From the NCBI GenBank assembly GCA_905478325.1, contig CAJQIB010000036.1, positions 1 to 34,530 of the forward strand: a stretch of DNA of 34,530 bases. Reading direction: 5' to 3'. A program made the position numbers and the translations under genes. Source of the stretch: an uncultured Flavobacteriales bacterium. Its GTDB lineage: Bacteria; Bacteroidota; Bacteroidia; Flavobacteriales_D; Sanyastnellaceae. The stretch's first letter is position 1, and each line of letters opens with the position of its first letter. The notes under the pieces were generated by a model. That model did no database searches, was not told the DNA's origin, and saw only the letters and a program-made list of their open reading frames with translations. Below are positions 6,348 to 34,530 of the stretch, piece by piece.

Positions 6348-6518
6348 CCAATAAAAGATGAAGTTCTCTGAAGAAGGAGCAAAGACTTGTAACATACACC
6401 GCAAATAAAACGAATGAGGCCACCCCTGTCGAGGTAATTAAAAATAGCCTATTCCATTGATACTTCCTAACTTATAAAAACAAACAGCCAGCTAACAACA
6501 CGAAATCCCGCGTGAAAT

Positions 6519-8598: not shown

Positions 8599-11500
8599 TT
8601 ATTCGCAAATCGTACCGAATGCACCCAAGAATTGGAGCAAGTCAGCCGTAGTTACAGAACCGTCTTCGTTCAAGTCAGCAGGACAAGGATTCGAAAGATC
8701 GAATTCACAAGACCCGTCGTCATTACCTGCGTTGGCATCATAGTTTGATGCGTCAGCATAGGTACAACCAGCACAATCATCGAAGATGCACGCCTCAAGG
8801 TCGAGAATATTCGCTGTGTCGTCATAGTTACATGCACAAGCAATATCACACCCTTCGATACAGTTCTGACCACCCGCAGACACGTAAGCAGGACCGTAAA
8901 GCTCACCACCGGTAATCACACCACCGAATACTCCGGTGATTGACCAAGAAGGCTCACTGTTAAAGACATCATCACCTGAAGTCAAGATGTAACATCCATC
9001 AGCCAAGCAATAGGTCTCTTGAGCATAACTTCCTTCAGTCAAAGACGTCTGGATGACAGTGTTGCCTTCCAAGTCTGTGATATGAACATCACATCCAGAC
9101 CAGCCATCACCGAACGAATCATTCATCGTGATCGTGATGCAAGAACCATAGCAGCAAGAATTGTCTTCAATGGTCGCCTCAGGGTCAAAATCACATGCTG
9201 TTACGTCCGTACAACCAGCACAAGTTTCGTACTCACAAGTACCATTCTCGTCTGTCGCCTCAGGATCATAGTTACAAGCAACTTCTTCCATACATCCACA
9301 TGTTACATCACCCAATCCGAATGGATAAGATTCTGTCACCAAGCTTCCACCGGCACCGCCTTCAGCCAACGTGTTGGTGCCATCGGTTACACTCCAAGAC
9401 TGCTCTTCAGACCAAAGGAACGCACCAGTGAAGGAATAAGAGTAGCAACCTGGATCCAAGCACAATACGTCTAGACCAAATTCAGCTCCGTCATAGTTGT
9501 CTTCGTCAATGATGAACATCGCATCATCAATCGCACCGGCAGTAATGCTGTTACCCACTGCATCGAATACTTCGTATCCACCAGTAGAACCGCTGTTACC
9601 ACCTGTCCATCCGTCACCGAATGAATCATACATATTGATGATCAACGCAATTCCGTTAGGGTTAGCGTCACAAGCACATGAAGTGTACTCACAATCGTCA
9701 GCATCAATGTTAGCTTCTGGGTTGTAGTTGCAAGCAACGTCAACGAAGCAACCATAAATAGCTTCTTCGCATTCCATTTCAATTTGGAACGAACCTCCAC
9801 CATCAAAAATACCATCCAAGTCGTATCCGACATATACATAGTACGTCATAGCAGGATCTGAAACAAACTGAACAGCTGCGTCATCTTGATCGAAGAAACC
9901 ACACGTATCGAAGCTTCCGTCGCTGATCGCAACTGAGCCGTCTACCTGGTTCACACACGAGAAGTCTCCACAGTCAGCTGTAGCTGAGCTGTAAACATGC
10001 AATCGCGTGTCAATCACAGAACCACACGTGTTGATGCTGTGCAAGTCGCCTGTACCGGCGAACGTGTACCACACACCTTCATATGCTGGGAACGTCAATT
10101 CTGATGTTCCATCTTCTGCAGCTGTTCCAGTAGTAGAACCGCCGGTTCCAGCTACAGTAAATCCAGCCAACACCTCATTGCTGTTGAAATAGATTGTTGC
10201 AGTTGCACCGTTCCATCCATCGCCATATGAGTCAACACCATCGAATGTGAAGTCACCTTCAGCCATACCGCAAGCCCACTGGCCTGTTGTAGCAGCGCCT
10301 TCGAAGACAGTGCCATCAGCATCCGTCAATGACCAGGTGATTTCGCTATCCCATGTACCTCCACCTACAATAATGTAAGCAGCGTTTTCATCGGCAGCAC
10401 AAGGAGCACATACAACTTCAGGAAAACCTGTGTTCGTAGCACCACCCATTGAACCTGTAATAACTTCTCCACATGGAAGATCTGCAGCATCAGCACACAG
10501 GTCATTTTCAGGAACCACAGAGTACATGCAAGTACCGTCGTCTTGGTTAGCCAAGGCATCGTAGTTGTCAGCAGCAGCATCTGTGCAACCCAAGAAAATA
10601 CCTTGAGTCGTGAATTCAAATTCACCACACGTTTCAGCGTCTGTTGTACCTACAGCGAAGTAGTAATCCGTATTTGGCTCCAACGTGATGAAGGATTCAA
10701 TTGAACCAGCACAAGTGCCCGTGAAATTGCAACCTACATACGTAGTCAAAGCGTCACAGTCACCTCCAGCCAAGTAAATGGTTAAAGTCAAGTCTCCAGA
10801 AGTAAGGTTCGTTGCGTTAAACATGAACGTATCGAAATCTTCACCTGAAACTGCATCTGTGCTGTTAAATGTGAACCAAACCGCATAGTTGGTACCTCCA
10901 AAGCTAGGAATAGCCGTTGGTGAGGCACAGCAGTTCGTTCCAGTAAACGTTACGTTGTCAATTTGAGGAGTCGCTTCAGCACAGAAATCATTGCTTGGAA
11001 TCTCATCACAAGCAGCACATTCTACACTCAACAAGAACTCAGATCCAGAGCTGAATGCACTGTACTTAGAAACGTAGATGTAGTAGTCTTGACCCGTCGT
11101 TGCAATAAATGCTACGCTTGACATCAAACCACATGCATCGTCGTTTCCAACGATCAATTCCAATTCACCTTCATCGTTGTACTGGAACACGTGCAATTTC
11201 GTGTCACTTACTGGATCCGCAAATCCTGAAGTTGAGGTAGGTGTATCGCATGTGTTAGCGAAAACCTGCTGATCTGAATCCGAGTTGAATTCATACCACA
11301 CACCACCCGTAGTGACTGTTGTTCCGAGGAACAAGCCTGTAACACCTTCTTCATCCGAGGCGTTGGCCAAGTTACCGTTTGAAAGTGCTCCACAGAAAAC
11401 TGCTTCAGCATTCTCAATCGCGTTGTTGGTTGGAGGACAGATACAAGATCCATCATCAACTGTAACCGAAATGTTATAGTTGAAACAGTTCTCATCTGTA

Positions 11501-13272
11501 CAACCTTCGAAATCACATCCACCCAACAAGCCGAAGTCGATAAACCAACCGCCGCTTGGGAATCCAACTGGAGGAGGCAATACACCGTAGTAATTCGTTG
11601 CAATCTGGTCACCATATACCGTACCGAATTGGTCAGTAATGATCATAGCGATTTCATCATCAGCAGTTCCACCGCCAGAGCTGAGAACATAGCATCCCAA
11701 AGGAATACAATGGAAGTCTGTTGCGACACCGTCGACATACAGGTCCGCCTCATCCCAGTTTCCTGAAATAGATGTTTCACCGTCATAGCTATCTACGTAG
11801 TAAGATGCTCCGTTCCAACCATCACCACCCAAGTCGTACATGTCAATATTCATGACATACGTACCCGCGTCACAGTAAACACAAGAACCATCGTTCTGTT
11901 GAGTTGCTGTTGGATCATAGTTCGCAGCAGAAGTGTCCATGCAACCGATGCAACCGTAGTCACATGTGCCGTCATCCAAGTTTGCTGTTTCGTCGTAGTT
12001 ACATGCCGTAGCATCCGTGCAACCAGGAAAAGCTGGCAAGCAAAAATCAGTCGATTCAGAAGAACCGAACGAAGCTCCAGAAGCCAATGTCGTTCCATTT
12101 GCATCTTCAACCGCATAAGAACCATTGCCATAAGAACAGCACATGCCGTCTCCGAATGAATCATACATCGTGAACGTGTAGCATGTTTCGTTGACACAAA
12201 GTTCAGCACCAACGCCACCTCCACTAGCAATCATATTTCCTTCAGCATCTACCAAGTCCCAAGAGGTCTCAGAAGCATAGTTGTCAGGATTGATGATTAC
12301 AGTCACCGCTTCAAAAGCACATGATGCATCGTCAGTTGTCGCAGCTGGGTCGAAGTTACATGCAGTCGCATCGGTACAACCGACGTACTCACAAGAACCA
12401 TCGTCCTCTGTTGCAATAGGGTTGTAGTTTGAAGCCGCAGAATCAACACAACCTGGGAAAGCGCAAGCCGCTACCCAGTCAATAGGCGTGTAGCCTGAGG
12501 CCGCACAAGAGCCAGAACCGTCTGAATCCATGACGATGTTCACAACACCGGTTGGAGACTCAACAAAGGTGCCAGAGATGTCCTGGTTACCCGCCACAGA
12601 TGTAAAACCTGTTGACCACAAGATATTGGCCGTAGCCAAGTCCAATCCGTCATACACATAGATTTGATCCCAGTAGTCCTCGATTTGACCAGAATTGATC
12701 AACAAGAAAATCGATTGTCCTGCAGGAGCAACCGCGTATCCATAAGAAACAAAGTTTTGATTTGAGTCATAGCAGAAGTTGCCAGCCCAATCACATGAAG
12801 GAAACTCGCAAGAGCCATCGTCTTCACCCGCGTCTGGGTTGTAGTTGATTGCGTCCATGTCCATGCAACCTGGAGTTGCCGCATCACCCACACAAAAACT
12901 GCCCGTAGAAACAGATCCAGAACCCGTTCCTGAGCTCACGACATCGCCCATGGCGTTTGTCATGCTCCAAGACGTTCCACCATCACCATACGCGTCAGTT
13001 ACCGCAAGGGTGTAACAACCATCAGCCAAACAGGCAGTGGCATCAACACTTCCGCCGTCAGGTACTGTTGCATAATCTCCTGCAGCAGCATAAGCTACTT
13101 CCACTCCATCAGCGTCTGTAATCGACCAACCTGCCTCTTCTGGCCAGTTATCGAAAGTCAGTGACAAAGTCACTTCGTTGGCATCACACTGCCCAAAGGC
13201 CGCGGGTGCAGAATAAAGGAAAAGCGCGAACATCGCTACGATGCTGCAACACTTTGTAAACGTGTTAAACAT
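8599..13272 (-). CDS. Giant secreted mosaic protein with 12 Cys-rich ACNY repeats and EF-hand tail
   Basis: 1557 residues with a signal peptide of about 27 residues ending AAFGQ. I count 12 copies of a roughly 25-residue unit of the form GC(T/M/V)D..A.NY.(P)......DDG(S/T)C, from about residue 134 to 1520. Between them are six blocks carrying a D(S/A)(F/Y)GDG(W) motif and W-S-(I/L)-T-D-(A/V)-DG strands, a CUB-like segment near residues 160-270 (DQIYVYDGLD), and three domains resembling bacterial pre-peptidase C-terminal (PPC) domains at about 615-745, 760-890 and 920-1180. The last residues form the EF-hand tail (loop DLNEDGSVTTAD, then FGTICE). Many disulfides and bound calcium are expected. 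Probably a cell-surface or adhesive protein; no catalytic motif is seen. Confidence 0.9.
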   Translation of the reverse strand: MFNTFTKCCSIVAMFALFLYSAPAAFGQCDANEVTLSLTFDNWPEEAGWSITDADGVEVAYAAAGDYATVPDGGSVDATACLADGCYTLAVTDAYGDGGTSWSMTNAMGDVVSSGTGSGSVSTGSFCVGDAATPGCMDMDAINYNPDAGEDDGSCEFPSCDWAGNFCYDSNQNFVSYGYAVAPAGQSIFLLINSGQIEDYWDQIYVYDGLDLATANILWSTGFTSVAGNQDISGTFVESPTGVVNIVMDSDGSGSCAASGYTPIDWVAACAFPGCVDSAASNYNPIATEDDGSCEYVGCTDATACNFDPAATTDDASCAFEAVTVIINPDNYASETSWDLVDAEGNMIASGGGVGAELCVNETCYTFTMYDSFGDGMCCSYGNGSYAVEDANGTTLASGASFGSSESTDFCLPAFPGCTDATACNYDETANLDDGTCDYGCIGCMDTSAANYDPTATQQNDGSCVYCDAGTYVMNIDMYDLGGDGWNGASYYVDSYDGETSISGNWDEADLYVDGVATDFHCIPLGCYVLSSGGGTADDEIAMIITDQFGTVYGDQIATNYYGVLPPPVGFPSGGWFIDFGLLGGCDFEGCTDENCFNYNISVTVDDGSCICPPTNNAIENAEAVFCGALSNGNLANASDEEGVTGLFLGTTVTTGGVWYEFNSDSDQQVFANTCDTPTSTSGFADPVSDTKLHVFQYNDEGELELIVGNDDACGLMSSVAFIATTGQDYYIYVSKYSAFSSGSEFLLSVECAACDEIPSNDFCAEATPQIDNVTFTGTNCCASPTAIPSFGGTNYAVWFTFNSTDAVSGEDFDTFMFNATNLTSGDLTLTIYLAGGDCDALTTYVGCNFTGTCAGSIESFITLEPNTDYYFAVGTTDAETCGEFEFTTQGIFLGCTDAAADNYDALANQDDGTCMYSVVPENDLCADAADLPCGEVITGSMGGATNTGFPEVVCAPCAADENAAYIIVGGGTWDSEITWSLTDADGTVFEGAATTGQWACGMAEGDFTFDGVDSYGDGWNGATATIYFNSNEVLAGFTVAGTGGSTTGTAAEDGTSELTFPAYEGVWYTFAGTGDLHSINTCGSVIDTRLHVYSSATADCGDFSCVNQVDGSVAISDGSFDTCGFFDQDDAAVQFVSDPAMTYYVYVGYDLDGIFDGGGSFQIEMECEEAIYGCFVDVACNYNPEANIDADDCEYTSCACDANPNGIALIINMYDSFGDGWTGGNSGSTGGYEVFDAVGNSITAGAIDDAMFIIDEDNYDGAEFGLDVLCLDPGCYSYSFTGAFLWSEEQSWSVTDGTNTLAEGGAGGSLVTESYPFGLGDVTCGCMEEVACNYDPEATDENGTCEYETCAGCTDVTACDFDPEATIEDNSCCYGSCITITMNDSFGDGWSGCDVHITDLEGNTVIQTSLTEGSYAQETYCLADGCYILTSGDDVFNSEPSWSITGVFGGVITGGELYGPAYVSAGGQNCIEGCDIACACNYDDTANILDLEACIFDDCAGCTYADASNYDANAGNDDGSCEFDLSNPCPADLNEDGSVTTADLLQFLGAFGTICE

Positions 13273-20530: not shown

Positions 20531-22546
20531 ATGAAAATCATCTTTTCCCTATTCGTGTTCTGTCTCTTCATTGCTCCGAATGCTTTGAATTCTCAAGAAA
20601 CAGCCACATCCAACGCTTCTGAAACTGTCCTGACTGTAGGGGATGAAGCCGTCTCGCTCGCTGACTTTCAGCACATCTTTATGAAGAACAACCGCGATAG
20701 CGTGGTCACCAGCGCATCATTGGATGAGTACATGGAATTGTTCATTCGATTCAAGTTGAAAGTTCAAGCTGCGGAAGCATTGGGGATGGATACGGTAGCG
20801 ACTTTCCAACGCGAATTGGCAGGATATCGATCGCAATTGGCGCGGCCCTATATGACCAACAATGACTTGCTTCAGGATCTCGTCCTCCAAGCTTGGGAAC
20901 GCAAACAAGAAGAAGTCCACGCACGCCACATTTTGGTGTCGTGCGGAAGTGAAGCTTCTGCATCTGACACCCTCAAAGCATGGAAGCGAGCGAATGCTCT
21001 GCGCACCAGGATCACCAATGGCGAAGACTTTGATGCCGTCGCACGTTCCAAAGGAGGATCCGACGACCCCAGCGTGAAGGACAACGGGGGTGATTTGGGC
21101 TGGTTCACGGCCTTTCAGATGCTCTACCCTTTTGAGGAAGCCGCATTTACCACTGAAATTGGGGGCATCAGCAATCTCGTTCGAACGCGGTATGGATACC
21201 ACGTCATTGAGGTCACTGGAAGACGCGAAGCACGCGGTGAAATACGAGCCGCTCACATCATGATTCGACTTAAAAAAGGATCGGATGCCGATGCATCGGC
21301 CAAATCAGAAGCCAAAATTGGACAGATTTATGATCTCCTCCAGAAAGGAATTCCATGGGATGAACTCGCTTTGAAAATGTCAGAAGACGCCAGCTCGGCC
21401 AGTAAAGGAGGAGAATTGCCTTGGTTTGGCACAGGGAAGATGATTGAAGCATTTGAAGATGCTGCATTTGGATTAGCCGAAGACGGCCAAATTTCTGAAC
21501 CCGTTGAAACCTCCTACGGATGGCACATCATCAAACGTTTGGAATACCGCGCACCCGCTTCCTTTGAAGCGTCCAAAAGAGAGATTGAGAAAAAAGTCAG
21601 CCGCGATAGCCGCAGTGAATTGACACGCGCGTCTTTCATTGAGAATCTCAAAGCCGAATACGCTGTTAAAATTCAGACAAGCTCTTTAAAGGGACTCTAT
21701 CGTCTGGCCAGCAGGCAAGACAGCGTGTTTTACCCCAACCATCCCGTCACAGGTGTGACGTCCACTGATCGGTCCAGAACGCTACTCACGATTGGAAGTG
21801 AAACGGCAACCGTTGGTGATTTCGTTGACCACCTCAATACGAGCAAAATTCGCAACGCTTCGATCGGCGGAAAGGCTGTCGTTGACGAGCAATTGAAGCT
21901 GTGGTCTGAAAACATGCTCTTGGATTATGAAGATGTGCGTTTGGAAGACAAGCACGATGCATTTCGTCTGTTGATGGAAGAATACCACGATGGCATTCTT
22001 CTCTTTGAGTTGACGGACGAGAAAGTGTGGAGCCGTGCCGTAAAAGATTCAACTGGACTTGAAGCCTTTCACGCTGCGACGTCCTCCGACTTCATGTGGT
22101 CAGAGCGAGCCGATATACGCGCCTTTATTTTGGCGGACGCCGCGTTGGCAAAAAAGGTCCGAAAGGCCATCAAAAAGAACAAGTCCCTCCTCCCTATTGC
22201 CGAAGAGGCTAACGCCGTTAATTCCTTGGCCTATCGATTGGAAGAAGGCCTGTTCAGTGAAGGCGAAAACCCTTGGGCCGATCGTATTTTAGCCGATCAC
22301 CTTTCGGGTTCGTTGGTCATGGCATCCAAGGGTGCGACGTTTGTAGAGTATACAGCTGGTGGAGACGAGGTCATCCTCGTCCAGGTTCGGGAAATTCGAG
22401 AACCCGAGCCAAAAACATTGGCTGAAGCCCGCGGACAAGTTATCGCTGCGTACCAAGATCAACTCGAAGCCGAATGGATCGAGTCTCTGCGCAGTGAGAC
22501 AGCGGTCGAAGTGAACCGATCATTGCTCCATTCTCTTGCGGACTGA
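20531..22546 (+). CDS. Periplasmic peptidyl-prolyl isomerase with two parvulin domains
   Basis: 671 residues with a signal peptide (MKIIFSLFVFCLFIAPNALN). After a SurA-like N-terminal helical part come two parvulin domains. The first, about residues 127-235, has ARHILVS, GGDLGWF, FEEAAF and RYGYHVIEV. The second, about 237-340, has AAHIMIRL, GGELPWFG, FEDAAF and SYGWHIIKR. The remaining 330 residues are a further helical and parvulin-like region without the full motif set. Such proteins speed proline isomerisation and chaperone outer-membrane and secreted proteins in the periplasm. The lipoprotein foldase gene starts at or just after its stop, so the two are cotranscribed. It is probably needed for export of the large surface proteins nearby, which is inference. 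Confidence 0.92.
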   Translation: MKIIFSLFVFCLFIAPNALNSQETATSNASETVLTVGDEAVSLADFQHIFMKNNRDSVVTSASLDEYMELFIRFKLKVQAAEALGMDTVATFQRELAGYRSQLARPYMTNNDLLQDLVLQAWERKQEEVHARHILVSCGSEASASDTLKAWKRANALRTRITNGEDFDAVARSKGGSDDPSVKDNGGDLGWFTAFQMLYPFEEAAFTTEIGGISNLVRTRYGYHVIEVTGRREARGEIRAAHIMIRLKKGSDADASAKSEAKIGQIYDLLQKGIPWDELALKMSEDASSASKGGELPWFGTGKMIEAFEDAAFGLAEDGQISEPVETSYGWHIIKRLEYRAPASFEASKREIEKKVSRDSRSELTRASFIENLKAEYAVKIQTSSLKGLYRLASRQDSVFYPNHPVTGVTSTDRSRTLLTIGSETATVGDFVDHLNTSKIRNASIGGKAVVDEQLKLWSENMLLDYEDVRLEDKHDAFRLLMEEYHDGILLFELTDEKVWSRAVKDSTGLEAFHAATSSDFMWSERADIRAFILADAALAKKVRKAIKKNKSLLPIAEEANAVNSLAYRLEEGLFSEGENPWADRILADHLSGSLVMASKGATFVEYTAGGDEVILVQVREIREPEPKTLAEARGQVIAAYQDQLEAEWIESLRSETAVEVNRSLLHSLAD

Positions 22547-23477
22547 CTCCAGCATCTTTCGCCCGCTTCAAAGGGGATCTTTGCAACATCAACCGATCCG
22601 AGTGGATGGGTTTTTCGCCTCGGGGTTTTGCGGGATCATTGGTGGACTCTTACTCTTCGGGTGCGCACAATTGGATGAACCCGAAAAGCCAACCGAGCAG
22701 TTTGTCGCCACGGCTTTCGAGCATGCGTTACCTCTGCAAGAAATTTGCGATCACATTCCGAACAATGCAGCCGCCGCCGACTCCGCGTTGATGGCGGAAC
22801 GCTATGTCGATCAATGGATTCGAGAACAAGTGGTCGTACACGAAGCTGAAAATCGCTTGCCCGAGGATCTACAAACGTTTGAACGCGAAATTGAGGCCTA
22901 CCGCAATGCGCTGCTTTTGCACCATTACAAGGAGCGCTATGTCCAACAACGCATGGAGCAGGAGGTTCCTGAGGAAGAGGCGCTCGCCTATTATATGGCA
23001 CACCAGGATTTATTCATGCTGATGGACTATGCTGTGCGTGCCACCTTCGTGCATTTGCCAGATGACGATGATCTCCATTTGGATTTCATCAAGTCCGCCT
23101 TGATGGCCCCAGATACTGCGTCATCATTTCCCTTGCAACAATGGTGTGTGGAGCACGCCGCCATCCATTCGTTGAATCGGGAAACCTGGTGGTACCTCGA
23201 AGATCTCATTCAGGAGGTTCCTATTGAGTTGTATCGTGCCGAAAAACAACTCGCCAATAGGAAGCTCATCACGTTTGATGCCGATGGGCGCAATTACTTC
23301 ATCCGGTTTCATGAACACGCACTGATCGATGGTGTCGCTCCTTTTGAAGTCGTTCAAGACCGTGTTTCCGAGTTGATTTTACACGGTAAAAAACAAGAGC
23401 TCCTCCTCCAATTGGAAGAAGAGCTCTTGATTCAAGCTTGGGAAAAAGGGAGCGTCCAGAAATTGATTCTGGAGTAG
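22536..23477 (+). CDS. SurA-N-like foldase lipoprotein without parvulin domain
   Basis: Up to 313 residues. The N-terminus has a hydrophobic segment ending in a lipobox-like LLLFGC, so it is probably a lipoprotein. The start is uncertain: TTG at 22536 overlaps the previous stop by 11 bases, and TTG at 22581 or GTG at 22602 would give shorter leaders. The rest is strongly charged helix (YVDQWIREQVVVHEAENRLP; LLLQLEEELLIQAWEKG), resembling the N-terminal chaperone part of SurA-type foldases, but none of the parvulin motifs is present. From what I know of Bacteroidota, a lipoprotein of this kind between two PpiC/SurA genes is a recurrent arrangement. Its last 34 codons also contain, on the other strand, the terminator of the convergent gene, and are copied at 27615-27718. 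Confidence 0.75.
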   Translation: MRTDSSIFRPLQRGSLQHQPIRVDGFFASGFCGIIGGLLLFGCAQLDEPEKPTEQFVATAFEHALPLQEICDHIPNNAAAADSALMAERYVDQWIREQVVVHEAENRLPEDLQTFEREIEAYRNALLLHHYKERYVQQRMEQEVPEEEALAYYMAHQDLFMLMDYAVRATFVHLPDDDDLHLDFIKSALMAPDTASSFPLQQWCVEHAAIHSLNRETWWYLEDLIQEVPIELYRAEKQLANRKLITFDADGRNYFIRFHEHALIDGVAPFEVVQDRVSELILHGKKQELLLQLEEELLIQAWEKGSVQKLILE

Positions 23478-24954
23478 ACCTCGATCGGTTCGCTTAGTCG
23501 CACTGCGAGGCAAACACGGTCAGGAAGGTCAGCATGTCCGACACCGTGACCACACCGTCGCAATCGCAATCCGCAGTTTCGAAGTCAATGTTCGCAGCGC
23601 CGTTGTTGCCGGGAAGACCTGCCAACAAGAACAACAAGTCGATGATGTCGCGCTCGCCGTTCAGGTTGAAGTCACCCAAACACGCGGCATTTACCTCCAC
23701 ATCGACTTCGTTGGCACACGCCACACTGGGCAGGGCATACGTGAACGTGTAATCGCCATTGGCCAAATCGTACGGCATGCCCTCACCTGAGGCCGTGCCG
23801 TCATCCGATGACCATGTCAACGACCACGCGTCCCACTCGCCTTCGAGTTCTGTGACATCCAAACCATCGCATACTGTGCTCGTCAAGGACAGGCTTGGCA
23901 TCGCATTGAAGTGCAACACAAAACGCTCCTCGTACAACGTGTTGGCAGGAAGGTTCACCACGAACGCATCCATGCCCAACTGCCCGCGTTCACCCGTCTC
24001 AGTATCTTCAATCACGGCGCACAGGTTGGCCGGCATCGTTTCCTGTTCTACCATCGAGAACACCACATCGCCTCCCGCTCCAGATGTCACATGCAACGGC
24101 AACGACGGCGTGTTCTCCAAAGAACCTGCTGATTGGATTGACAAGTGCTCGCCGTTCTCGGCCTCCATCCACACACGCAAATCGCTATGGACCTCAGTGT
24201 TCAAGTGCAACGCATCTTCGCTTGGAATAAAAGCTGCCGTAGCTGCTTCGTCGAAGCGAACAAAGGCGTGCGCCCACTGCTCAGAATCGTTGGCAATCCC
24301 CAAACCGATCGAGCCTTGGAAAGAAGGGTCCAACTCCCGCACAAACGTGCCGCTTGTGCCTACCACCTTGTCCGATTCTTTGAACGTGATCGAGGTGTTC
24401 TGGTCAACCTTTACCCAAATGGATTGGCCAACATCCAATGTTGTCGGCGCGCCACCCGTACCATCAGCTAAAGTCTCCACATAGCTTCCTGCTCCGGTGT
24501 TGTCGAACAAGTAGTACGCGGTCACAAGCGCATTCTCTGTATGAGCCAACACCGAAACCATGTTCACCGGTGCCGGGTATGGGTTGGAAACCAGGTTCCA
24601 CCCATCTACCGTCACATCACTCTGGTTGGGATCATCGGTGAACGTCAAAGGAAGCGTTACATCTCCCATTTCAAACTTGCCCGTGACACTGATTGTGCCT
24701 GAGACTCCTGATGGAACCAGCGCCATGTATCCGTTGCCCGGTGTCAATACGGCCGTACCATCCCACAAGTAGTTCCAACCCGCTGCCTGCGAACCATACG
24801 AGGCCTCATTGTATTCGAACAGCAACATGCCTGAGACGCCTGAGGTCCAGTCTGCAACCGTCGTTCCGGTCACGTACGCGCCGATGTTGACCCACGAATT
24901 GTCCGTATCCGAAGGGATGAAGCGTTCGAAGGTGAAGGTCTGATCGACGCCGTC
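23374..24954. repeat. 1.58-kb direct repeat, copy 1
   Basis: Matches 27615-29195 at a constant offset of 4241 bases. I saw no difference in the lines compared, and the products agree exactly in several reading frames. It spans the last 104 bases of the lipoprotein gene, the terminator hairpin, the short gap and the last 486 codons of the large minus-strand gene. Outside the borders the sequences diverge at once on the left, and drop to distant paralogy on the right. Confidence 0.97.
23388..23429 (-). terminator. Intrinsic terminator inside the lipoprotein coding region
   Basis: Bases 23394-23429 form a 36-base near-perfect palindrome (16 of 18 pairs, arms CAAGAGCTC/GAGCTCTTG around CCAATTGG). 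On the minus strand it is followed by six T (complement of 23388-23393). It serves the gene ending at 23494 while lying wholly within the codons of the convergent lipoprotein gene. Confidence 0.8.
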
Positions 24955-27246
24955 ATCGAAATTGGCCAACTCGCAGGCTCCGATGGCAGCGGTTCCATCG
25001 GTCGTGGATTGGAACGTGAGGCTGGAGGAAACCGATGAATCAATTTTCAGCTTGTCCGTCTGTGCGCCCGAATCAAATTTCAAAGCTCCCGCTGGCTTCA
25101 TCTTGATGTGACCTTTCAAGGTTGCCGTTTTGTTGTTTTCAACCACCAAATTTTTTAATTGGAAACGGCTACTGCTGGGATCTGCATAATTGTTCGCATC
25201 GATGGTTTGCTCCGTCAGACTCGATAACTTGAGCGTACCTTGCCCTCCCTCGAACGCTCCAGATGTGCCCAATGCAATGCTGCCAGAGGCAGCCAAGGTG
25301 CGACCTGCACCGTCACAACTCGCGAAGGTTCCGGAAGTGACCGTAATGTCATTGCAGGCGACTTCGGAAGCGGCGTCTACGGTGAGCGATACTCCGCTAT
25401 CCACAACAATATCCAAAGCCGAATTTCCCGAAGGATTGACAATTCCAGGTCCGTTTGCCAAGCCATTCCAAGTTGCGCTGTTTGAGAGGCTAATGTAACC
25501 ATTCGGCTCATATGGAAGCTCACTGTAATCGCTGACTATGCTTGAATAAGTGGGAGTTGCGCCGTTGGCAGCTGAAAATGACACGCCCTCTCCGATCACT
25601 TGGGTCACCAAGCCACTGGCACTCGCCGCAAACGGTAGCACAGAAGCACCACCTTGGTAAGCCCAAGCTGCTGATTGATTGAAGTTGGCATTTTCGTAAC
25701 TGTATGCCTCATCCATCGATGCGGACCAATCTGACCCTTCAATCAGTGTTCCCGCACCTGTATTGCCACCAAAATTCAAATCAAAGCCCAAGCAAGTGAG
25801 GTGGCGCAGGCTCCCGTCGAGCTCAGCTGTTCCGTACGTAAGGTTGGTGTTCCAATCGATGTCTGGCTGGAATATCCACGAAAATTCCGTTGCCCAGTTG
25901 AACTCTTGTCTTCCACTACTCAAGTGCTCAAAGGTGCCGCAAGATTGGCCACCTGAAAGAGTTGCGTTACCAGAAGCTCGAACAATGGGGTCATTTTCAT
26001 CATCGCATTTAGCGATTCCGCTCGATGGTGAAGCATCAATATCAAAGAGAATGACTTCGGTTCCCGATACAACACCTTCAGCCGGCGCTGTCCATCGAAT
26101 CACCGAGCTCGTTCCGCTCAAAGTCCCCCAATAGGACCCAGTCCATTGCCACTCTGAAACTAAAAATAAAGTTGTTCCCGACTCAATGTCTTTTAGAACC
26201 GTGAAACCAATATAGTCGTCACCAATTCCGGAATAGGCATCAGCAGCAAACGAAAAATAAACATCGCCGGGATACAAAATCGTCCCGGAGTAATCGCTTG
26301 GATTCAAGCTGGGGTCGGAATCGGTATTGTCCAAGACATAACCTGCTGGCTGGGCACAGGCCACTTGCGAAACCGCTGGATCACCAAGGCCATCGCCATC
26401 CGCATCCTCGTACCACGTTTGCTGAGTATAGGAACAGGCTGCCGTAGGGTTCGCCAGGTAGTTGCACGCGGTGGTATTTGTGCAACTGTCCGCATCATCG
26501 CACACACCGTCCGAGTCTACATCTACGCCGTCTCCACCGCATACGCCGCAAGCGTCGTTTGTTAAACAGGAGGCATTTGCGTTGCTGTTCACGTCGTAGT
26601 TGCAGGCTGATGTATCATCGCAGAGATCGGTTGAATCGGCGACGTATCCTGCTGGTTGACTGCAAGCGGATGTTGTCGAACTCGGATTGCCCAAACCGTC
26701 TCCGTCGGTGTCGGCGTACCAGGTAGTTGGGGTGCACGAAACGGTTCCGGTTAAAACAATGTTGTCGAGCGTTCGGTATTTGTTCTTGGCAATTGAAAAC
26801 GAATAGGTTATTACCGTAGTCGTCGCACCACCATCGGGCGAGAATGAACCGCTGCTGTATGTACCATTGGACATGGAGACGGAAGGTAAAGAAGTACCAC
26901 CGGAGCCATCTGAGTATGAGGACAACGTTATACTTGTGTACCCTCCAATTGAAATGGGATCACTCACCCACGTGCAGGTGTAAGTCCCATTCGAAGAATT
27001 GCCCAGAAATCGGAATGCACTGCTTGTGATGGACATCGTACCACTCGATCCTGAAGTGGTCTCTGTCGCCACCCATTGATCACCCGTCAGCGTCGTGGTG
27101 CTTGACCCCGTCTCCCCCGTAAAATCTTCCGACCAAATCGTTTGTTGCCCCGTGACTTGACTCGAGAGAAGCAAAAAAAGAAGGGTAGACAAACAATGGG
27201 AGAGAAAAACGCGGACGCCTTCTCGACGAGGTTTCGAATCAATCAT
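23494..27246 (-). CDS. Very large secreted protein with TSP3-like calcium segments and dockerin-like C-terminus (A)
   Basis: 1250 residues from the ATG at 27246 (a GTG at 27264 is possible), with a signal peptide (FLSHCLSTLLFLLLSSQVTG). The order is: an N-terminal beta domain (about 35-180); a calcium-type region with two WY-DxDGDGLG units, QPAGYV segments and two ACNY Cys-rich units (180-330); a module beginning SGTILYPGDVYFSF with RWTAPAEGVVSGTEV (330-500), a design common in bacterial extracellular proteins but unnamed to me; a low-complexity beta region; and a C-terminal half with GWNLVSNPYPAPVN. The end has two EF-hand-like loops (DFNLNGERDIID and DCDCDGVVTVSD) and a Cys next to last. 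Residues from about 765 onward are identical to protein B. It lies opposite to the foldase genes that flank it. Confidence 0.87.
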   Translation of the reverse strand: MIDSKPRREGVRVFLSHCLSTLLFLLLSSQVTGQQTIWSEDFTGETGSSTTTLTGDQWVATETTSGSSGTMSITSSAFRFLGNSSNGTYTCTWVSDPISIGGYTSITLSSYSDGSGGTSLPSVSMSNGTYSSGSFSPDGGATTTVITYSFSIAKNKYRTLDNIVLTGTVSCTPTTWYADTDGDGLGNPSSTTSACSQPAGYVADSTDLCDDTSACNYDVNSNANASCLTNDACGVCGGDGVDVDSDGVCDDADSCTNTTACNYLANPTAACSYTQQTWYEDADGDGLGDPAVSQVACAQPAGYVLDNTDSDPSLNPSDYSGTILYPGDVYFSFAADAYSGIGDDYIGFTVLKDIESGTTLFLVSEWQWTGSYWGTLSGTSSVIRWTAPAEGVVSGTEVILFDIDASPSSGIAKCDDENDPIVRASGNATLSGGQSCGTFEHLSSGRQEFNWATEFSWIFQPDIDWNTNLTYGTAELDGSLRHLTCLGFDLNFGGNTGAGTLIEGSDWSASMDEAYSYENANFNQSAAWAYQGGASVLPFAASASGLVTQVIGEGVSFSAANGATPTYSSIVSDYSELPYEPNGYISLSNSATWNGLANGPGIVNPSGNSALDIVVDSGVSLTVDAASEVACNDITVTSGTFASCDGAGRTLAASGSIALGTSGAFEGGQGTLKLSSLTEQTIDANNYADPSSSRFQLKNLVVENNKTATLKGHIKMKPAGALKFDSGAQTDKLKIDSSVSSSLTFQSTTDGTAAIGACELANFDDGVDQTFTFERFIPSDTDNSWVNIGAYVTGTTVADWTSGVSGMLLFEYNEASYGSQAAGWNYLWDGTAVLTPGNGYMALVPSGVSGTISVTGKFEMGDVTLPLTFTDDPNQSDVTVDGWNLVSNPYPAPVNMVSVLAHTENALVTAYYLFDNTGAGSYVETLADGTGGAPTTLDVGQSIWVKVDQNTSITFKESDKVVGTSGTFVRELDPSFQGSIGLGIANDSEQWAHAFVRFDEAATAAFIPSEDALHLNTEVHSDLRVWMEAENGEHLSIQSAGSLENTPSLPLHVTSGAGGDVVFSMVEQETMPANLCAVIEDTETGERGQLGMDAFVVNLPANTLYEERFVLHFNAMPSLSLTSTVCDGLDVTELEGEWDAWSLTWSSDDGTASGEGMPYDLANGDYTFTYALPSVACANEVDVEVNAACLGDFNLNGERDIIDLLFLLAGLPGNNGAANIDFETADCDCDGVVTVSDMLTFLTVFASQCD

Positions 27247-27614
27247 AAGAACGATTTTTTGCACTCAACAGGAAACATATCCAAGGAAAGTGTAGAAAAG
27301 ACAATTTGGGTTAGTGAAGATACGAATGTGACCTTCGTTACACAAGCATTTAGACCTTTCGCCGGTATAACCGCTGAAATCCCAAAAATGTTCTAGCCCA
27401 TTCGGAAACTAAATCAATATTTTTTTTTCACGAAAAGACTGATAGTCAGTCATTTTAAAACCCATTCCGTATTCCTCATTACATAAATAAACGCAGATTA
27501 AAACAAATTTATCCATCGGAAATAAACTCAAAAAGCACTCCAAGTTGCCCCCTTTTCATGCAAAATGGAGTTGAACGGCTTCTTTTTAGTTTTCATAAAT
27601 GCCCATTTTAGAGC
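27247..27614. other. AT-rich gap before the second repeat copy
   Basis: About 368 bases with no gene. It holds the leader and probable promoter of gene A on the minus strand. A 15-base inverted repeat (GACTGA-TAG-TCAGTC, 27437-27451) is next to a run of T. Bases 27420-27600 are notably AT-rich compared with the genes around. No insertion-sequence ends or RNA gene were recognised. Confidence 0.4.
27504..27532 (-). promoter_or_regulatory. Probable Bacteroidota promoter of gene A
   Basis: On the minus strand: TTTG (27532-27529), 17 bases, TAAATTTG (27511-27504). Both boxes fit the Bacteroidota consensus exactly. It is downstream of gene B's terminator and would give gene A its own transcript with a leader of about 250 bases. 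Confidence 0.45.
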
Positions 27615-27718
27615 TGATTTTACACGGTAAAAAACAAGAGCTCCTCCTCCAATTGGAAGAAGAGCTCTTGATTCAAGCTTGGGAAAAAGGGAGCGTCCAG
27701 AAATTGATTCTGGAGTAG
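27615..27718 (+). pseudogene. Copied 3' fragment of the foldase lipoprotein gene
   Basis: The 104 bases are the same as the end of the lipoprotein gene (23374-23477), including its TAG stop, but no upstream part of that gene is present. The fragment has no mutation relative to the source, so the copying is either recent or continually corrected. It probably has no role of its own except through the terminator hairpin it contains. Confidence 0.85.
27629..27670 (-). terminator. Copied intrinsic terminator of gene B
   Basis: The same 36-base near-palindrome (27635-27670) and T run (complement of 27629-27634) as at 23388-23429. It lies 64 bases past the stop of gene B. The repeat border is only 14 bases beyond the T run. 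Confidence 0.8.
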
Positions 27719-27734
27719 ACCTCGATCGGTTCGC

Positions 27735-30704
27735 TTAGTCGCACTGCGAGGCAAACACGGTCAGGAAGGTCAGCATGTCCGACACCGTGACCACACCGTC
27801 GCAATCGCAATCCGCAGTTTCGAAGTCAATGTTCGCAGCGCCGTTGTTGCCGGGAAGACCTGCCAACAAGAACAACAAGTCGATGATGTCGCGCTCGCCG
27901 TTCAGGTTGAAGTCACCCAAACACGCGGCATTTACCTCCACATCGACTTCGTTGGCACACGCCACACTGGGCAGGGCATACGTGAACGTGTAATCGCCAT
28001 TGGCCAAATCGTACGGCATGCCCTCACCTGAGGCCGTGCCGTCATCCGATGACCATGTCAACGACCACGCGTCCCACTCGCCTTCGAGTTCTGTGACATC
28101 CAAACCATCGCATACTGTGCTCGTCAAGGACAGGCTTGGCATCGCATTGAAGTGCAACACAAAACGCTCCTCGTACAACGTGTTGGCAGGAAGGTTCACC
28201 ACGAACGCATCCATGCCCAACTGCCCGCGTTCACCCGTCTCAGTATCTTCAATCACGGCGCACAGGTTGGCCGGCATCGTTTCCTGTTCTACCATCGAGA
28301 ACACCACATCGCCTCCCGCTCCAGATGTCACATGCAACGGCAACGACGGCGTGTTCTCCAAAGAACCTGCTGATTGGATTGACAAGTGCTCGCCGTTCTC
28401 GGCCTCCATCCACACACGCAAATCGCTATGGACCTCAGTGTTCAAGTGCAACGCATCTTCGCTTGGAATAAAAGCTGCCGTAGCTGCTTCGTCGAAGCGA
28501 ACAAAGGCGTGCGCCCACTGCTCAGAATCGTTGGCAATCCCCAAACCGATCGAGCCTTGGAAAGAAGGGTCCAACTCCCGCACAAACGTGCCGCTTGTGC
28601 CTACCACCTTGTCCGATTCTTTGAACGTGATCGAGGTGTTCTGGTCAACCTTTACCCAAATGGATTGGCCAACATCCAATGTTGTCGGCGCGCCACCCGT
28701 ACCATCAGCTAAAGTCTCCACATAGCTTCCTGCTCCGGTGTTGTCGAACAAGTAGTACGCGGTCACAAGCGCATTCTCTGTATGAGCCAACACCGAAACC
28801 ATGTTCACCGGTGCCGGGTATGGGTTGGAAACCAGGTTCCACCCATCTACCGTCACATCACTCTGGTTGGGATCATCGGTGAACGTCAAAGGAAGCGTTA
28901 CATCTCCCATTTCAAACTTGCCCGTGACACTGATTGTGCCTGAGACTCCTGATGGAACCAGCGCCATGTATCCGTTGCCCGGTGTCAATACGGCCGTACC
29001 ATCCCACAAGTAGTTCCAACCCGCTGCCTGCGAACCATACGAGGCCTCATTGTATTCGAACAGCAACATGCCTGAGACGCCTGAGGTCCAGTCTGCAACC
29101 GTCGTTCCGGTCACGTACGCGCCGATGTTGACCCACGAATTGTCCGTATCCGAAGGGATGAAGCGTTCGAAGGTGAAGGTCTGATCGACGCCGTCTTCAA
29201 AATTCGATGCATCACAGGCTCCAATAGCCGCAGTACCCTGTGTGCCATCCGATTGGAATGTCAATGAGGATATCACCGTTCCGTCCAACTCCAACTGATC
29301 ACCCGTCACCGTGTCATCAAACAGAAGAGAGCCGCCCGATTTCATCTTCACATGGCCTTTCACCTTCAACTTCTTGCCCTTCGTGACTTGAATGCCTTTG
29401 AATTGCACTTTGGAGCTTGAAGCGTCTGAAGAATTATTGGCATCTATCGTTTGTTCATCATCCCCATTGAACTCAAAAACTCCTTGTCCACCATTGAAAA
29501 CACACGTGTTCGCCGGATCCAATAAAATGTCGCCCGAAGCTGAGGTGCATCGACCTGACCCATCACATGCCACGAACTTTCCATTGGTGATGGTGAGATT
29601 CTGCAAACTGACCGCAGGCTTATCCACCACGAACGTCATATCCGCATTGCTAATTGTAACATCCAACGTAGAGGATCCTTCCGTGACAACAGCCGTTGTC
29701 CACAAAAGCCCCATGCTATTGGACAAATTGCCCACAGGCAGTTGGTCATCATCAATATCATTTATTGATGTGCTGATCTCTGAATAGTTATTTGAACTCT
29801 TCAGAAGGCCTTGAATTTCTCCCATCACATTGCCAGAAAGAATCAAATTATCCCCCGCTACTGTTGCTGCCGTTGTTGCATTGAACCTCCACTGGTGCTT
29901 CCCGAAAGGCGCTGCTTGAGCAGAGTAATCATCATTGAAGAATTCATTCGGCGAATTGTTCGCGGAGTAAAGCAGCGTATTCACTGCGGTATTTCCCGGG
30001 CCATTGCCGTGTGACTTATCCAAATCCTTTCCAACACAACTCAACATGCGCACATCGGAATACCCAATATCCTTCCAATCAACATCCCAATCAGAATCAT
30101 CCCCTTCCAATTCATCTGCCGGCTGAAACAACCACAAGTGATCTCCATGAATGTGGTGTTCAACCCCACCGTTGAGCGCAACCCACGAACCACAACTTTC
30201 ACCGCCAGTATAATAATCCTCGCCAGAAGTTACCAATGAAATGGGGCTAGCCGTGGTCGCTTTGATCGCGGTACCCTCAATAGAAGCATCCGCAAAACCG
30301 CCGACACCCCTGCAGACAACTTCCGTTCCTGCAGTCACTCCTCCAATGGGGGCAGTCCAAACAAATCCTTCTAAATCCTCCGCATCAAAACTTGTATCAT
30401 CAACGCCTCCCAACCACTTTTCTCGTGTGAATGCGACCTTCGTTCCTGATGCTACATCGACTAAAAAAACAAAACCCAGATTGCACGTCGCCTTATTGTT
30501 CTTCCCCTCATTTCCGATGGTCATGTACACATCTCCCGGAGAAAGTGTTGTTCCAGAAAATGTCTGAGCATGGGCTCCCACAGGGGCCACAGCCGAAAAA
30601 ATCACTCCTAATATTGCAAGCACAACCAACTTCAACTCTCGGTTTTTCCATGCAAATTGGACACCAAAAGAATACTCAGAAAGGCTTTTTGTAAATACTA
30701 GCAT
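27735..30704 (-). CDS. Large secreted protein with dockerin-like C-terminus (B), chimeric partner of A
   Basis: 989 residues from the ATG at 30704. The export signal is the segment LVVLAILGVIFSAVAPVG ending AHAQ. A TTG at 30635 would begin just before it and give a more usual signal peptide. The N-terminal module (SGTTLSPGDVYMTIG ... WTAPIGGVTAGTEV) is a diverged relative of the middle module of A, but B lacks A's N-terminal beta domain and TSP3-like region. Residues about 385-503 are partly conserved with A (GGQG, EQTIDANN, SSLTFQS, AAIGAC). From about residue 504 to the end the two proteins are identical, including GWNLVSNPYPAPVN, two EF-hand-like loops and the final Cys. It has its own upstream region and a copied terminator. 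Probably a surface-exposed structural or binding protein. Confidence 0.87.
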   Translation of the reverse strand: MLVFTKSLSEYSFGVQFAWKNRELKLVVLAILGVIFSAVAPVGAHAQTFSGTTLSPGDVYMTIGNEGKNNKATCNLGFVFLVDVASGTKVAFTREKWLGGVDDTSFDAEDLEGFVWTAPIGGVTAGTEVVCRGVGGFADASIEGTAIKATTASPISLVTSGEDYYTGGESCGSWVALNGGVEHHIHGDHLWLFQPADELEGDDSDWDVDWKDIGYSDVRMLSCVGKDLDKSHGNGPGNTAVNTLLYSANNSPNEFFNDDYSAQAAPFGKHQWRFNATTAATVAGDNLILSGNVMGEIQGLLKSSNNYSEISTSINDIDDDQLPVGNLSNSMGLLWTTAVVTEGSSTLDVTISNADMTFVVDKPAVSLQNLTITNGKFVACDGSGRCTSASGDILLDPANTCVFNGGQGVFEFNGDDEQTIDANNSSDASSSKVQFKGIQVTKGKKLKVKGHVKMKSGGSLLFDDTVTGDQLELDGTVISSLTFQSDGTQGTAAIGACDASNFEDGVDQTFTFERFIPSDTDNSWVNIGAYVTGTTVADWTSGVSGMLLFEYNEASYGSQAAGWNYLWDGTAVLTPGNGYMALVPSGVSGTISVTGKFEMGDVTLPLTFTDDPNQSDVTVDGWNLVSNPYPAPVNMVSVLAHTENALVTAYYLFDNTGAGSYVETLADGTGGAPTTLDVGQSIWVKVDQNTSITFKESDKVVGTSGTFVRELDPSFQGSIGLGIANDSEQWAHAFVRFDEAATAAFIPSEDALHLNTEVHSDLRVWMEAENGEHLSIQSAGSLENTPSLPLHVTSGAGGDVVFSMVEQETMPANLCAVIEDTETGERGQLGMDAFVVNLPANTLYEERFVLHFNAMPSLSLTSTVCDGLDVTELEGEWDAWSLTWSSDDGTASGEGMPYDLANGDYTFTYALPSVACANEVDVEVNAACLGDFNLNGERDIIDLLFLLAGLPGNNGAANIDFETADCDCDGVVTVSDMLTFLTVFASQCD

Positions 30705-33436: not shown

Positions 33437-33570
33437 AACCGAACCACGATCATTTGGCTTGAATGATACCGGCATTTCAACGAGGAATGCCTAGCTGCTC
33501 TTTCCGCATGTTCTATCTTTACGCTTGCCGCTTAGATAGCTATGCGGACAACACCTGAGATCAAGCCCCC

Positions 33571-34530
33571 ATGTACGCATCGGATAAGGAAGCGCTCGAA
33601 GCGCTGAACACGAAACAACAGCAATTGCTCCAAGAAATTGGGAAGGTCATTGTCGGACAAGATCAGGTGATCCGAGAGGTGACCACCGCGATTTTTGCCG
33701 GCGGGCACGTTTTGCTTGTGGGTGTTCCGGGGCTCGCCAAAACGCTTTTGGTCAACACGATCGCACAGGCTTTGGGACTGGAATTCAACCGCGTCCAGTT
33801 CACGCCGGATTTGATGCCAAGCGACATCGTGGGATCGGAGATTCTCAACGAACAGCGCCAATTCCAATTCATGAAGGGGCCGTTGTTTGCCAACATCGTG
33901 CTGGCCGACGAAATCAACCGGACACCGCCGAAAACACAGTCCGCCCTGCTCGAAGCGATGCAAGAGCGGTCGGTGACGGTGGCCGGTCAGAATTATCCGT
34001 TGCCTTCTCCCTTTTTTGTTCTCGCCACACAAAACCCGATTGAACAAGAAGGAACGTACCCGTTGCCTGAAGCGCAACTCGACCGTTTTATGTTCAACAC
34101 ATGGGTGGATTATCCGACGCATGCCGAAGAGTTGAGCGTGGTCAAGGCCACGACTTCGGATGTCACGACTTCGGTCCGGCCGGTCATTTCCGGAGAGGAG
34201 ATTTTGTATTTCCAGCAATTGATTCGCCGCATGCCCATCGCCGACAACGTGCTGGAGTACGCGGTTGGATTGGCCGGTAAAACCCGCCCAGGCCGCGAAC
34301 GTGCCACGGCGGAAGTCAACGCGTACCTCTCGTGGGGCGCCGGGCCGCGGGCCTCGCAATATTTGGTCGTTGGTGCCAAGGTCAACGCCGCGTTGAACGG
34401 AAAATACAGTCCTGACATCGCGGACGTGCAAGCCGTGGCGCTGCCGATTTTGCGGCACCGGATTGTCCGCAACTACAAGGCAGAAGCAGAAGGACATACG
34501 GTCGAATCGATCATTGACGGGCTGCTTTAA
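33571..34530 (+). CDS. MoxR-family AAA+ ATPase
   Basis: 319 residues, complete; the stop is the last codon of the window. Walker A is GVPGLAKT at residues 51-58, Walker B is IVLADEINR at about 109-117, sensor 1 lies in VLATQNPIEQEGTYPLPEAQLDRF, and the C-terminal lid has the family's GASPRA-like block (WGAGPRASQYL). MoxR ATPases are cytoplasmic chaperone-like AAA+ proteins. They usually work with a DUF58 protein and von Willebrand A-domain membrane proteins (BatA/BatB type) encoded just downstream; that part is outside the window. It follows the foldase genes, an arrangement common in Bacteroidota as far as I know, here separated from surA by a glycosyltransferase gene. Confidence 0.94.
   Translation: MYASDKEALEALNTKQQQLLQEIGKVIVGQDQVIREVTTAIFAGGHVLLVGVPGLAKTLLVNTIAQALGLEFNRVQFTPDLMPSDIVGSEILNEQRQFQFMKGPLFANIVLADEINRTPPKTQSALLEAMQERSVTVAGQNYPLPSPFFVLATQNPIEQEGTYPLPEAQLDRFMFNTWVDYPTHAEELSVVKATTSDVTTSVRPVISGEEILYFQQLIRRMPIADNVLEYAVGLAGKTRPGRERATAEVNAYLSWGAGPRASQYLVVGAKVNAALNGKYSPDIADVQAVALPILRHRIVRNYKAEAEGHTVESIIDGLL

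Follow-up and report, generated by a model that had tools for sequence, protein, structure and literature searches.

Apparent recent copying of a complete 3' gene end between tandem secreted-type protein genes in an uncultured Flavobacteriales bacterium

Terminal exchange between proteins is, as an idea, already known, and several described systems can be set beside the locus reported here, in which two tandem genes for secreted-type proteins (A and B) of an uncultured Flavobacteriales bacterium share a 1.58-kb 3' block. In Rhs displacement, as described by Jackson et al. (2009, PMC2935791), constant and variable parts have separate histories, recombination takes place in the constant part and circles are proposed to enter by recombination. 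That paper also uses the term terminal reassortment, for secreted effectors. As general background, reassortment of this kind gives one terminus to proteins with different remaining parts. For the effector-immunity arrays of the type VI secretion system (T6SS), Kirchberger et al. (2017, PMC5361080) propose one homologous anchor and one non-homologous end, with tandem products. The cargo of type IX secretion offers a further comparison, in that SprA is encoded in the genome, a CHU_C protein is encoded within the analysed stretch, and A and B have signal-peptide-like starts, as judged by eye.

The analysed stretch, hereafter the window, is the whole of contig C36 (34,530 nucleotides (nt)) in a draft genome of 2.38 Mb and 59 contigs. 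Our principal reading, to which we assign a probability of roughly 0.7, is that the 1.58-kb 3' block was recently copied from the slot of gene A to the head of gene B, as the latest in a series of C-terminal replacements that fell mostly near the same joint. Unlike in Rhs, it is the 3' part that is constant here whilst the 5' heads vary, and both genes are whole; the orientation is thus the reverse of a constant 5' core followed by orphan variable 3' tips. Three of the four gene remnants found at this slot in relatives are constant 3' ends alone, the fourth (in genome G018) being a head plus an end. In contrast to terminal reassortment as described, homologous paralogues would here exchange near one joint, with the C-terminus travelling together with its terminator. 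The T6SS arrays differ in that no toxin-immunity pair was recognised at this locus, the product being two whole secreted-type genes, and type IX cargo differs in that neither A nor B has a type A or B sorting domain recognised in Pfam or NCBIfam (E up to 0.1).

The genes and the repeat are placed as follows.

23494 to 27264, minus strand: gene A, 1256 amino acids (aa), GTG start at 27264; signal-peptide-like N-terminus, CNYD-type repeats, head, middle segment and C-terminal module (the start and the signal peptide were assessed by eye, and the likelier start is an in-frame ATG that lies six codons inside the GTG).
27735 to 30704, minus strand: gene B, 989 aa, with a different head and the same C-terminal 486 aa as A.
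23374 to 24954, minus strand: copy 1 of the 1581-bp exact repeat, in the A slot (putative source), with the joint, C-terminal module, stop and 3' flank; from repeat search and base comparison.
27615 to 29195, minus strand: copy 2 of the repeat, behind head B (putative derived copy); from repeat search and base comparison.
24931 to 24996, minus strand: joint region in A (residues 757-778), adjoining the conserved FTFERFIP..NSWVNIGAYVTG stretch; placed by change points.
27265 to 27614, no strand: unique 350 bp upstream of A, whose junction with the repeat (27614/27615) is the joint without homology.

A base-by-base comparison of 23374-24954 with 27615-29195 found 1581 matches in 1581 bases, at an offset of 4241 and with maximal exact borders, and an independent repeat search of the window returned the same pair as its largest direct repeat family (at least 300 nt). 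When identity was counted per 50-base block across 22001-27000, blocks within the repeat scored 50/50, the two that hold its borders scored 36 and 33, and those elsewhere scored 7-24/50. The repeat comprises the last 486 codons of A and B, the stop codon and 120 bp downstream. Its right border lies in mid-gene, within a stretch that is still paralogous (45% aa identity between A and B over the preceding 151 positions); the change point between the two genes was located at A residue 771, where DNA identity passes from 0.46 to 1.00 with a log-likelihood gain of 545, compared with 9.4 for the best of 100 shuffles. At the left-type end (27614/27615), only 3 bases match beyond the first mismatch.

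These results uphold what a first-pass annotation had proposed from the sequence, namely that the two stretches are identical, that the remainder of A and B is distantly related or unrelated, and that the identity stops mid-gene in a paralogous region, and the many scattered differences that it regarded as the mark of an old duplication are absent from the assembly. One C-terminal module is indeed joined to different heads, as it had also suggested, with 486 identical codons behind heads A and B. Elsewhere in the genome, a third copy of the C-terminus is carried by a gene on contig C26 (85% DNA identity, without the 120 bp past the stop) and a distant fourth by contig C55 (40% protein identity). 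Across A, B and C26, the C-termini are 89-100% alike at the aa level and the heads 26-30%.

The direction of copying may be read from the gene that converges on A.

22536 to 23477, plus strand: convergent gene, 313 aa, no Pfam match at E up to 0.001; its final 104 bp fall within copy 1 and overlap the terminator-like hairpin of A.
27615 to 27718, plus strand: behind B, an orphan duplicate of the convergent gene's 3'-terminal 104 bp, which serves as the direction mark (similarity match at 27560-27715).

The repeat includes 23374-23477, which is the 3'-terminal 104 bp of the convergent gene; that gene is intact only next to A, and a 3' fragment alone lies behind B. Genome G008, the nearest relative by convergent gene and SurA (94% and 96% aa identity), aligns collinearly with the window (89%) between 14474 and 23602, after which the match jumps to 30888, and it retains the convergent gene, the A-slot flank and the last 35 C-terminal codons. 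Because this collinearity runs through the convergent gene and the A-slot flank, the A-side arrangement is taken to be the older one, and because the convergent gene is whole only beside A and relatives keep that layout, the tract appears to have come from the A slot and to have been copied behind head B. With relatives considered, the tract can also be read as 23370-24954 with a single difference at 23373, which is T beside A and C behind B and in G008, G012 and G020. Most simply this would be one change beside A after copying, but it is a hint and not proof, because the more distant G018 also has T.

What was copied looks like a complete 3' end, consisting of joint, C-terminus, stop and terminator.

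23394 to 23429, minus strand: terminator-like hairpin of A, a 16-pair stem followed by T6, within the 3' end of the convergent gene.
27635 to 27670, minus strand: the copied terminator-like hairpin behind B.

On the strand of the genes, in the 120 bp past the stop, both copies have a 16-pair stem with a four-base loop followed by TTTTTT, with an RNA folding energy z of -5.3 that was equalled by 0 of 200 shuffles. A pattern scan gave 12 terminator-like sites overall against 9.2 expected; as this total is close to expectation, weight is placed on stem length, since 16 pairs were reached by these two sites only and the others had at most 8. The hairpin, which is whole in G008 and G018, probably terminates transcription.

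In the proposed course of events, one border would have been anchored by homology at the conserved joint shared by A and B, and the other end would have closed without homology beyond the terminator, either by homology-facilitated illegitimate recombination or by a template switch, so that B's older 3' end was replaced by the copied block. The position of the right border, on the margin of a conserved stretch, and the 3 matching bases at the other end are what homology-facilitated illegitimate recombination would leave. Such a one-sided replacement falls a little short of even odds as the route. The earlier suggestion of gene conversion or a segmental copy thus survives in its second part; as one end of the repeat is homologous and the other almost without homology, a segmental copy is favoured over a two-sided conversion. 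Classical conversion between resident paralogues could draw on A and B being tandem paralogues, as are gene pairs in genomes G011 and G005, but it is a poor prospect, given that the left border falls inside the 3' end of another gene, 120 bp after the stop codon, and that the two slots have hardly any similarity beyond it; judged on the present B slot, only one tract end lies in homologous sequence. DprA was found in the genome and was also matched in 11 of 14 control genomes, hence it is uninformative on DNA uptake.

The borders also fit the entry of a circle by one crossover, and do not distinguish it from one-sided recombination. The locus would first have had a single gene, with head B on this C-terminus beside the convergent gene, and a piece with the 3' block, head A and upstream DNA would have entered, circularised or duplicated, through one crossover within the shared 3' block; the resulting order would be block, head A, block, head B. 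The sole non-homologous joint (27614/27615) would then be the closing point of the circle, a head-B-like remnant does lie between the convergent gene and SurA in G018, and such circles were proposed for rhs by Jackson et al. (PMC2935791). Against this, the scenario requires a source in which head A already sat on an identical block, and the 350 bp upstream of A had no match among the 18 loci that were compared with the window. We regard an insertion as a minority possibility.

The copying appears to be very recent. No synonymous differences separate A from B over 486 codons (synonymous divergence, dS, 0), and with 0 differences in 1581 bases the 95% upper bound is near 0.19% by our own arithmetic, compared with 10.7% divergence of the flanks from G008. 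In four of the five flanking genes, dS to G008 is 0.15-0.32, which supports the earlier proposal of a recent event; the fifth, MoxR (0.67), was set aside as probably foreign. An old duplication whose copies stayed the same through selection at the protein level would agree with the conservation of the C-terminus in the family, but A and C26 differ at about half of their synonymous sites (pS, the proportion differing, 0.50; dS 0.82), and dS 0 over 486 codons rules this explanation out unless assembly hid differences.

An assembly artefact, in which slightly different copies were merged into one consensus used twice or strains were mixed, must be considered for a draft genome of this kind, and PMC6710874 reports that earlier metagenome methods smooth genomic variants. 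At 27614 the entry to the repeat has just 3 adjoining bases in common with the other entry, leaving little to mislead an assembler, and tandem genes occupy the same slot in G011 and G005. By our own reasoning a tandem direct repeat forms a simple loop for an assembler, and the two entries share almost nothing, so the arrangement is taken as real and an artefact is considered improbable; smoothing may nevertheless have erased a small number of differences within the copies.

The slot between the convergent gene and SurA was then compared across a genus sample of 22 genomes, the window's own included, in which the thresholds used gave a convergent gene in 17 and SurA in 16. A survey of the 14 loci with both genes on one stretch (the window and 13 relatives; tblastn E up to 0.01) found two family genes in 3 loci (the window, G011 and G005) and a family remnant in 4 (G008, G018, G016 and G002), with no family remains at that threshold in the other 7 (G012, G020, G019, G001, G004, G013 and G007). 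Remnants keep the C-terminal end, with 35 codons in G008, 27 in G002 and 136 in G016. In that of G018 (L064:6873-8274), which has one stop near its start, a head-B-like part continues in frame as a dockerin-like end, the middle and most of the C-terminal module being missing. Family genes thus seem to come and go at this slot. A scan of named genomes added one relative, contig CAJQLF010000053.1 of a metagenome-assembled genome named 'uncultured Flavobacteriales bacterium'.

Recurrence of the exchange, which the first-pass annotation had raised together with a comparison in relatives, is favoured by conflicting trees within the genus. Ten family members (A, B, C26, the four genes of the G011 and G005 pairs, g11C53, g3C128 and g17C52) were aligned with the distant C55; C55 was left out of the upstream tree and B, being identical to A, out of the C-terminal tree used for approximately unbiased (AU) tests. 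Both trees used the LG+G4 model and exclude the four remnants, C55-type members from other genomes and the distant members found beyond the genus. Family proteins of other genomes were read from stop to stop, making their N-termini approximate, and g3C128 contains a run of N (X in the protein).

Protein identities differ before and after the joint. A and g5C79b are 72% identical (aa) over 151 positions before it and 55% after, where A and C26 reach 89%; g17C52 and g11C66b pass from 94% to 61%, and g11C66b and g5C79b from 60% to 84%. In the tree of the region before the joint, A clusters with g5C79b, g11C66b and g17C52 (100/99), and in the C-terminal tree with C26 and g11C53 (100/100), so that the phylogenies of head and C-terminus conflict. 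The AU test rejected A with g5C79b, g11C66b and g17C52 in the C-terminus (p 3.7e-73), A, B, C26 and g11C53 together upstream (p 6.7e-5), A with B upstream (p 3.3e-4), g17C52 with g11C66b in the C-terminus (p 7.6e-5) and g11C66b with g5C79b upstream (p 1.1e-4).

Change points were estimated for 16 pairs, 13 of which exceeded their own 100 shuffles, and 10 of these 13 fell at A residues 757-777; besides A/B, they include A/C26 at 777 (774-778), A/g11C53 at 775 (772-777) and g11C66b/g5C79b at 775 (757-781). No significant step was detected for A/g17C52, A/g11C66b or C26/g11C53 (100 shuffles each). Between members, DNA identity averages 47-62% across residues 601-780 and 72% across 781-800, and because of this rise the joint is taken as the edge of usable homology. 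At least three replacements would account for these patterns. The first links the ends of A and C26, and would more probably be the entry of a C26-type end into the A slot than the reverse; a second would lie among g11C66b, g5C79b and g17C52, and the third would be the recent copying from A to B.

The gene on C26 may itself be mobile. Its dS to g11C53 is 0.97, and in the comparison of G000 with G011 saturation is reached in four of five flanking genes, with MoxR at dS 1.5; because the C26/g11C53 pair is far closer than this background, a movement of the C26-type gene between lineages is suggested. The C26 gene and its G011 counterpart (L062 and L063) are 81.7% alike over 3.45 kb, with no match of at least 150 bp between their downstream flanks among the matches listed, and G008 and G012 carry relatives of the C26-gene flank that match only further in. 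The contigs C26 and C53 each begin inside the family gene, and a 266-bp tandem repeat, 93% identical, lies at a contig start within the CNYD-type repeats (L063:1-470).

Several of the observations weigh against recent copying in a series of replacements near one joint. The exact identity, the copy number and the 27614/27615 joint all rest on the assembly of one strain, and at 23373 G018 shares T with A and not C with B. The tandem pairs of G011 and G005 have unlike C-termini (59% and 52% aa identity), so that near-identical pairs do not recur at the slot. In G020 and G012, which lack the genes, the hairpin stem is reduced to 14 pairs and broken, respectively, and no such stem was seen in the folds of G011 and G005, both of which carry family genes; moreover, as the hairpin overlaps the coding sequence of the convergent gene, its conservation is not solely about termination. 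Significant steps also occurred away from the joint, in g17C52/g11C66b at 808 (798-906) and g5C79a/g3C128 at 707. Compared with g5C79b, g17C52 and g11C66b, A splits at 583, 605 and 628 (the first significant, the last two not) and shows no drop in DNA identity at the joint, hence the conflict seen for A comes from the trees and from identity at the protein level. Independence does not hold among the 16 pairs, five of which involve the A/B/C26-type end, part of the steps may reflect heads evolving faster than C-termini, and the AU groups were picked after the identity tables had been seen, under the simpler LG+G4 model.

If the principal reading holds, a C-terminal exchange has been caught soon after it occurred, with its direction recorded in the copied 3' end of a neighbouring gene, and it becomes testable how bacteria give secreted proteins new heads whilst keeping a needed end and terminator. 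A complete 3' block with terminator, and a 3'-constant layout, in surface-type genes of Bacteroidota were not among the openly licensed literature matches listed, in which no search was aimed at terminators; this is weak evidence for the novelty of both. A more speculative and rather doubtful extension is that the slot is an exchangeable-head locus, in which a 4.24-kb circle of head A, upstream DNA and one 3' block loops out by way of the identical 3' blocks and re-enters at any related C-terminal module, in the same genome or in a different cell. Heads would then circulate among species of the genus, always landing on a C-terminus with stop and terminator, as a mirror image of Rhs displacement.

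The last ~60 residues of A and B look dockerin-like at a sub-threshold level, with Pfam PF00404 (dockerin type I) at 16.0 and 17.9 bits, below the gathering score of 22.9, and B scored 14.1 bits against NF041540, below 29. No other kind of hit was returned for A and B from Pfam or NCBIfam. Searching the genome with the last 125 residues matched 14 places (E up to 1), 10 of which have a similar motif at most 90 residues from the protein end, by a loose pattern of our own in which B counts as identical to A. Several proteins of the genome that are otherwise unlike one another finish in a dockerin-like end of about 55-60 residues (window 23494-23700, L009, L011, L012, L154, L156, L157 and L159), which is possibly a shared sorting or anchoring end that falls below the Pfam cut-off. 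A PDB sequence search with B gave one weak match, of its end, to 5lxv_B (a carbohydrate-binding protein by name; E 0.0047). When B was modelled in AlphaFold2 together with A and the L085 protein, the mean predicted local distance difference test score was 31, and a PADLOC scan of the same three proteins returned no match.

From left to right, the gene order is IMP dehydrogenase, a PPIC-type isomerase, the convergent gene, A, B, SurA, a glycosyltransferase and a MoxR-type ATPase. A Pfam scan of 16 window proteins (A, B and 14 others) found no transposase, and the repeat search (seed 14, length 40) listed no inverted repeats, at settings that missed an imperfect 42-bp palindrome. The MoxR-type ATPase region (33505-34530) is 98.2% identical to G018, compared with about 71-75% for the remaining locus, and the nearer relative G008 shows 88.5% over the right flank; this excess identity may reflect interspecies exchange or a chimeric contig end. 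Further to the left, the minus strand carries a 1557-aa open reading frame at 8599-13272, with no Pfam match at E up to 0.001, and three tandem FG-GAP/UnbV-ASPIC paralogues at 2716-8321.

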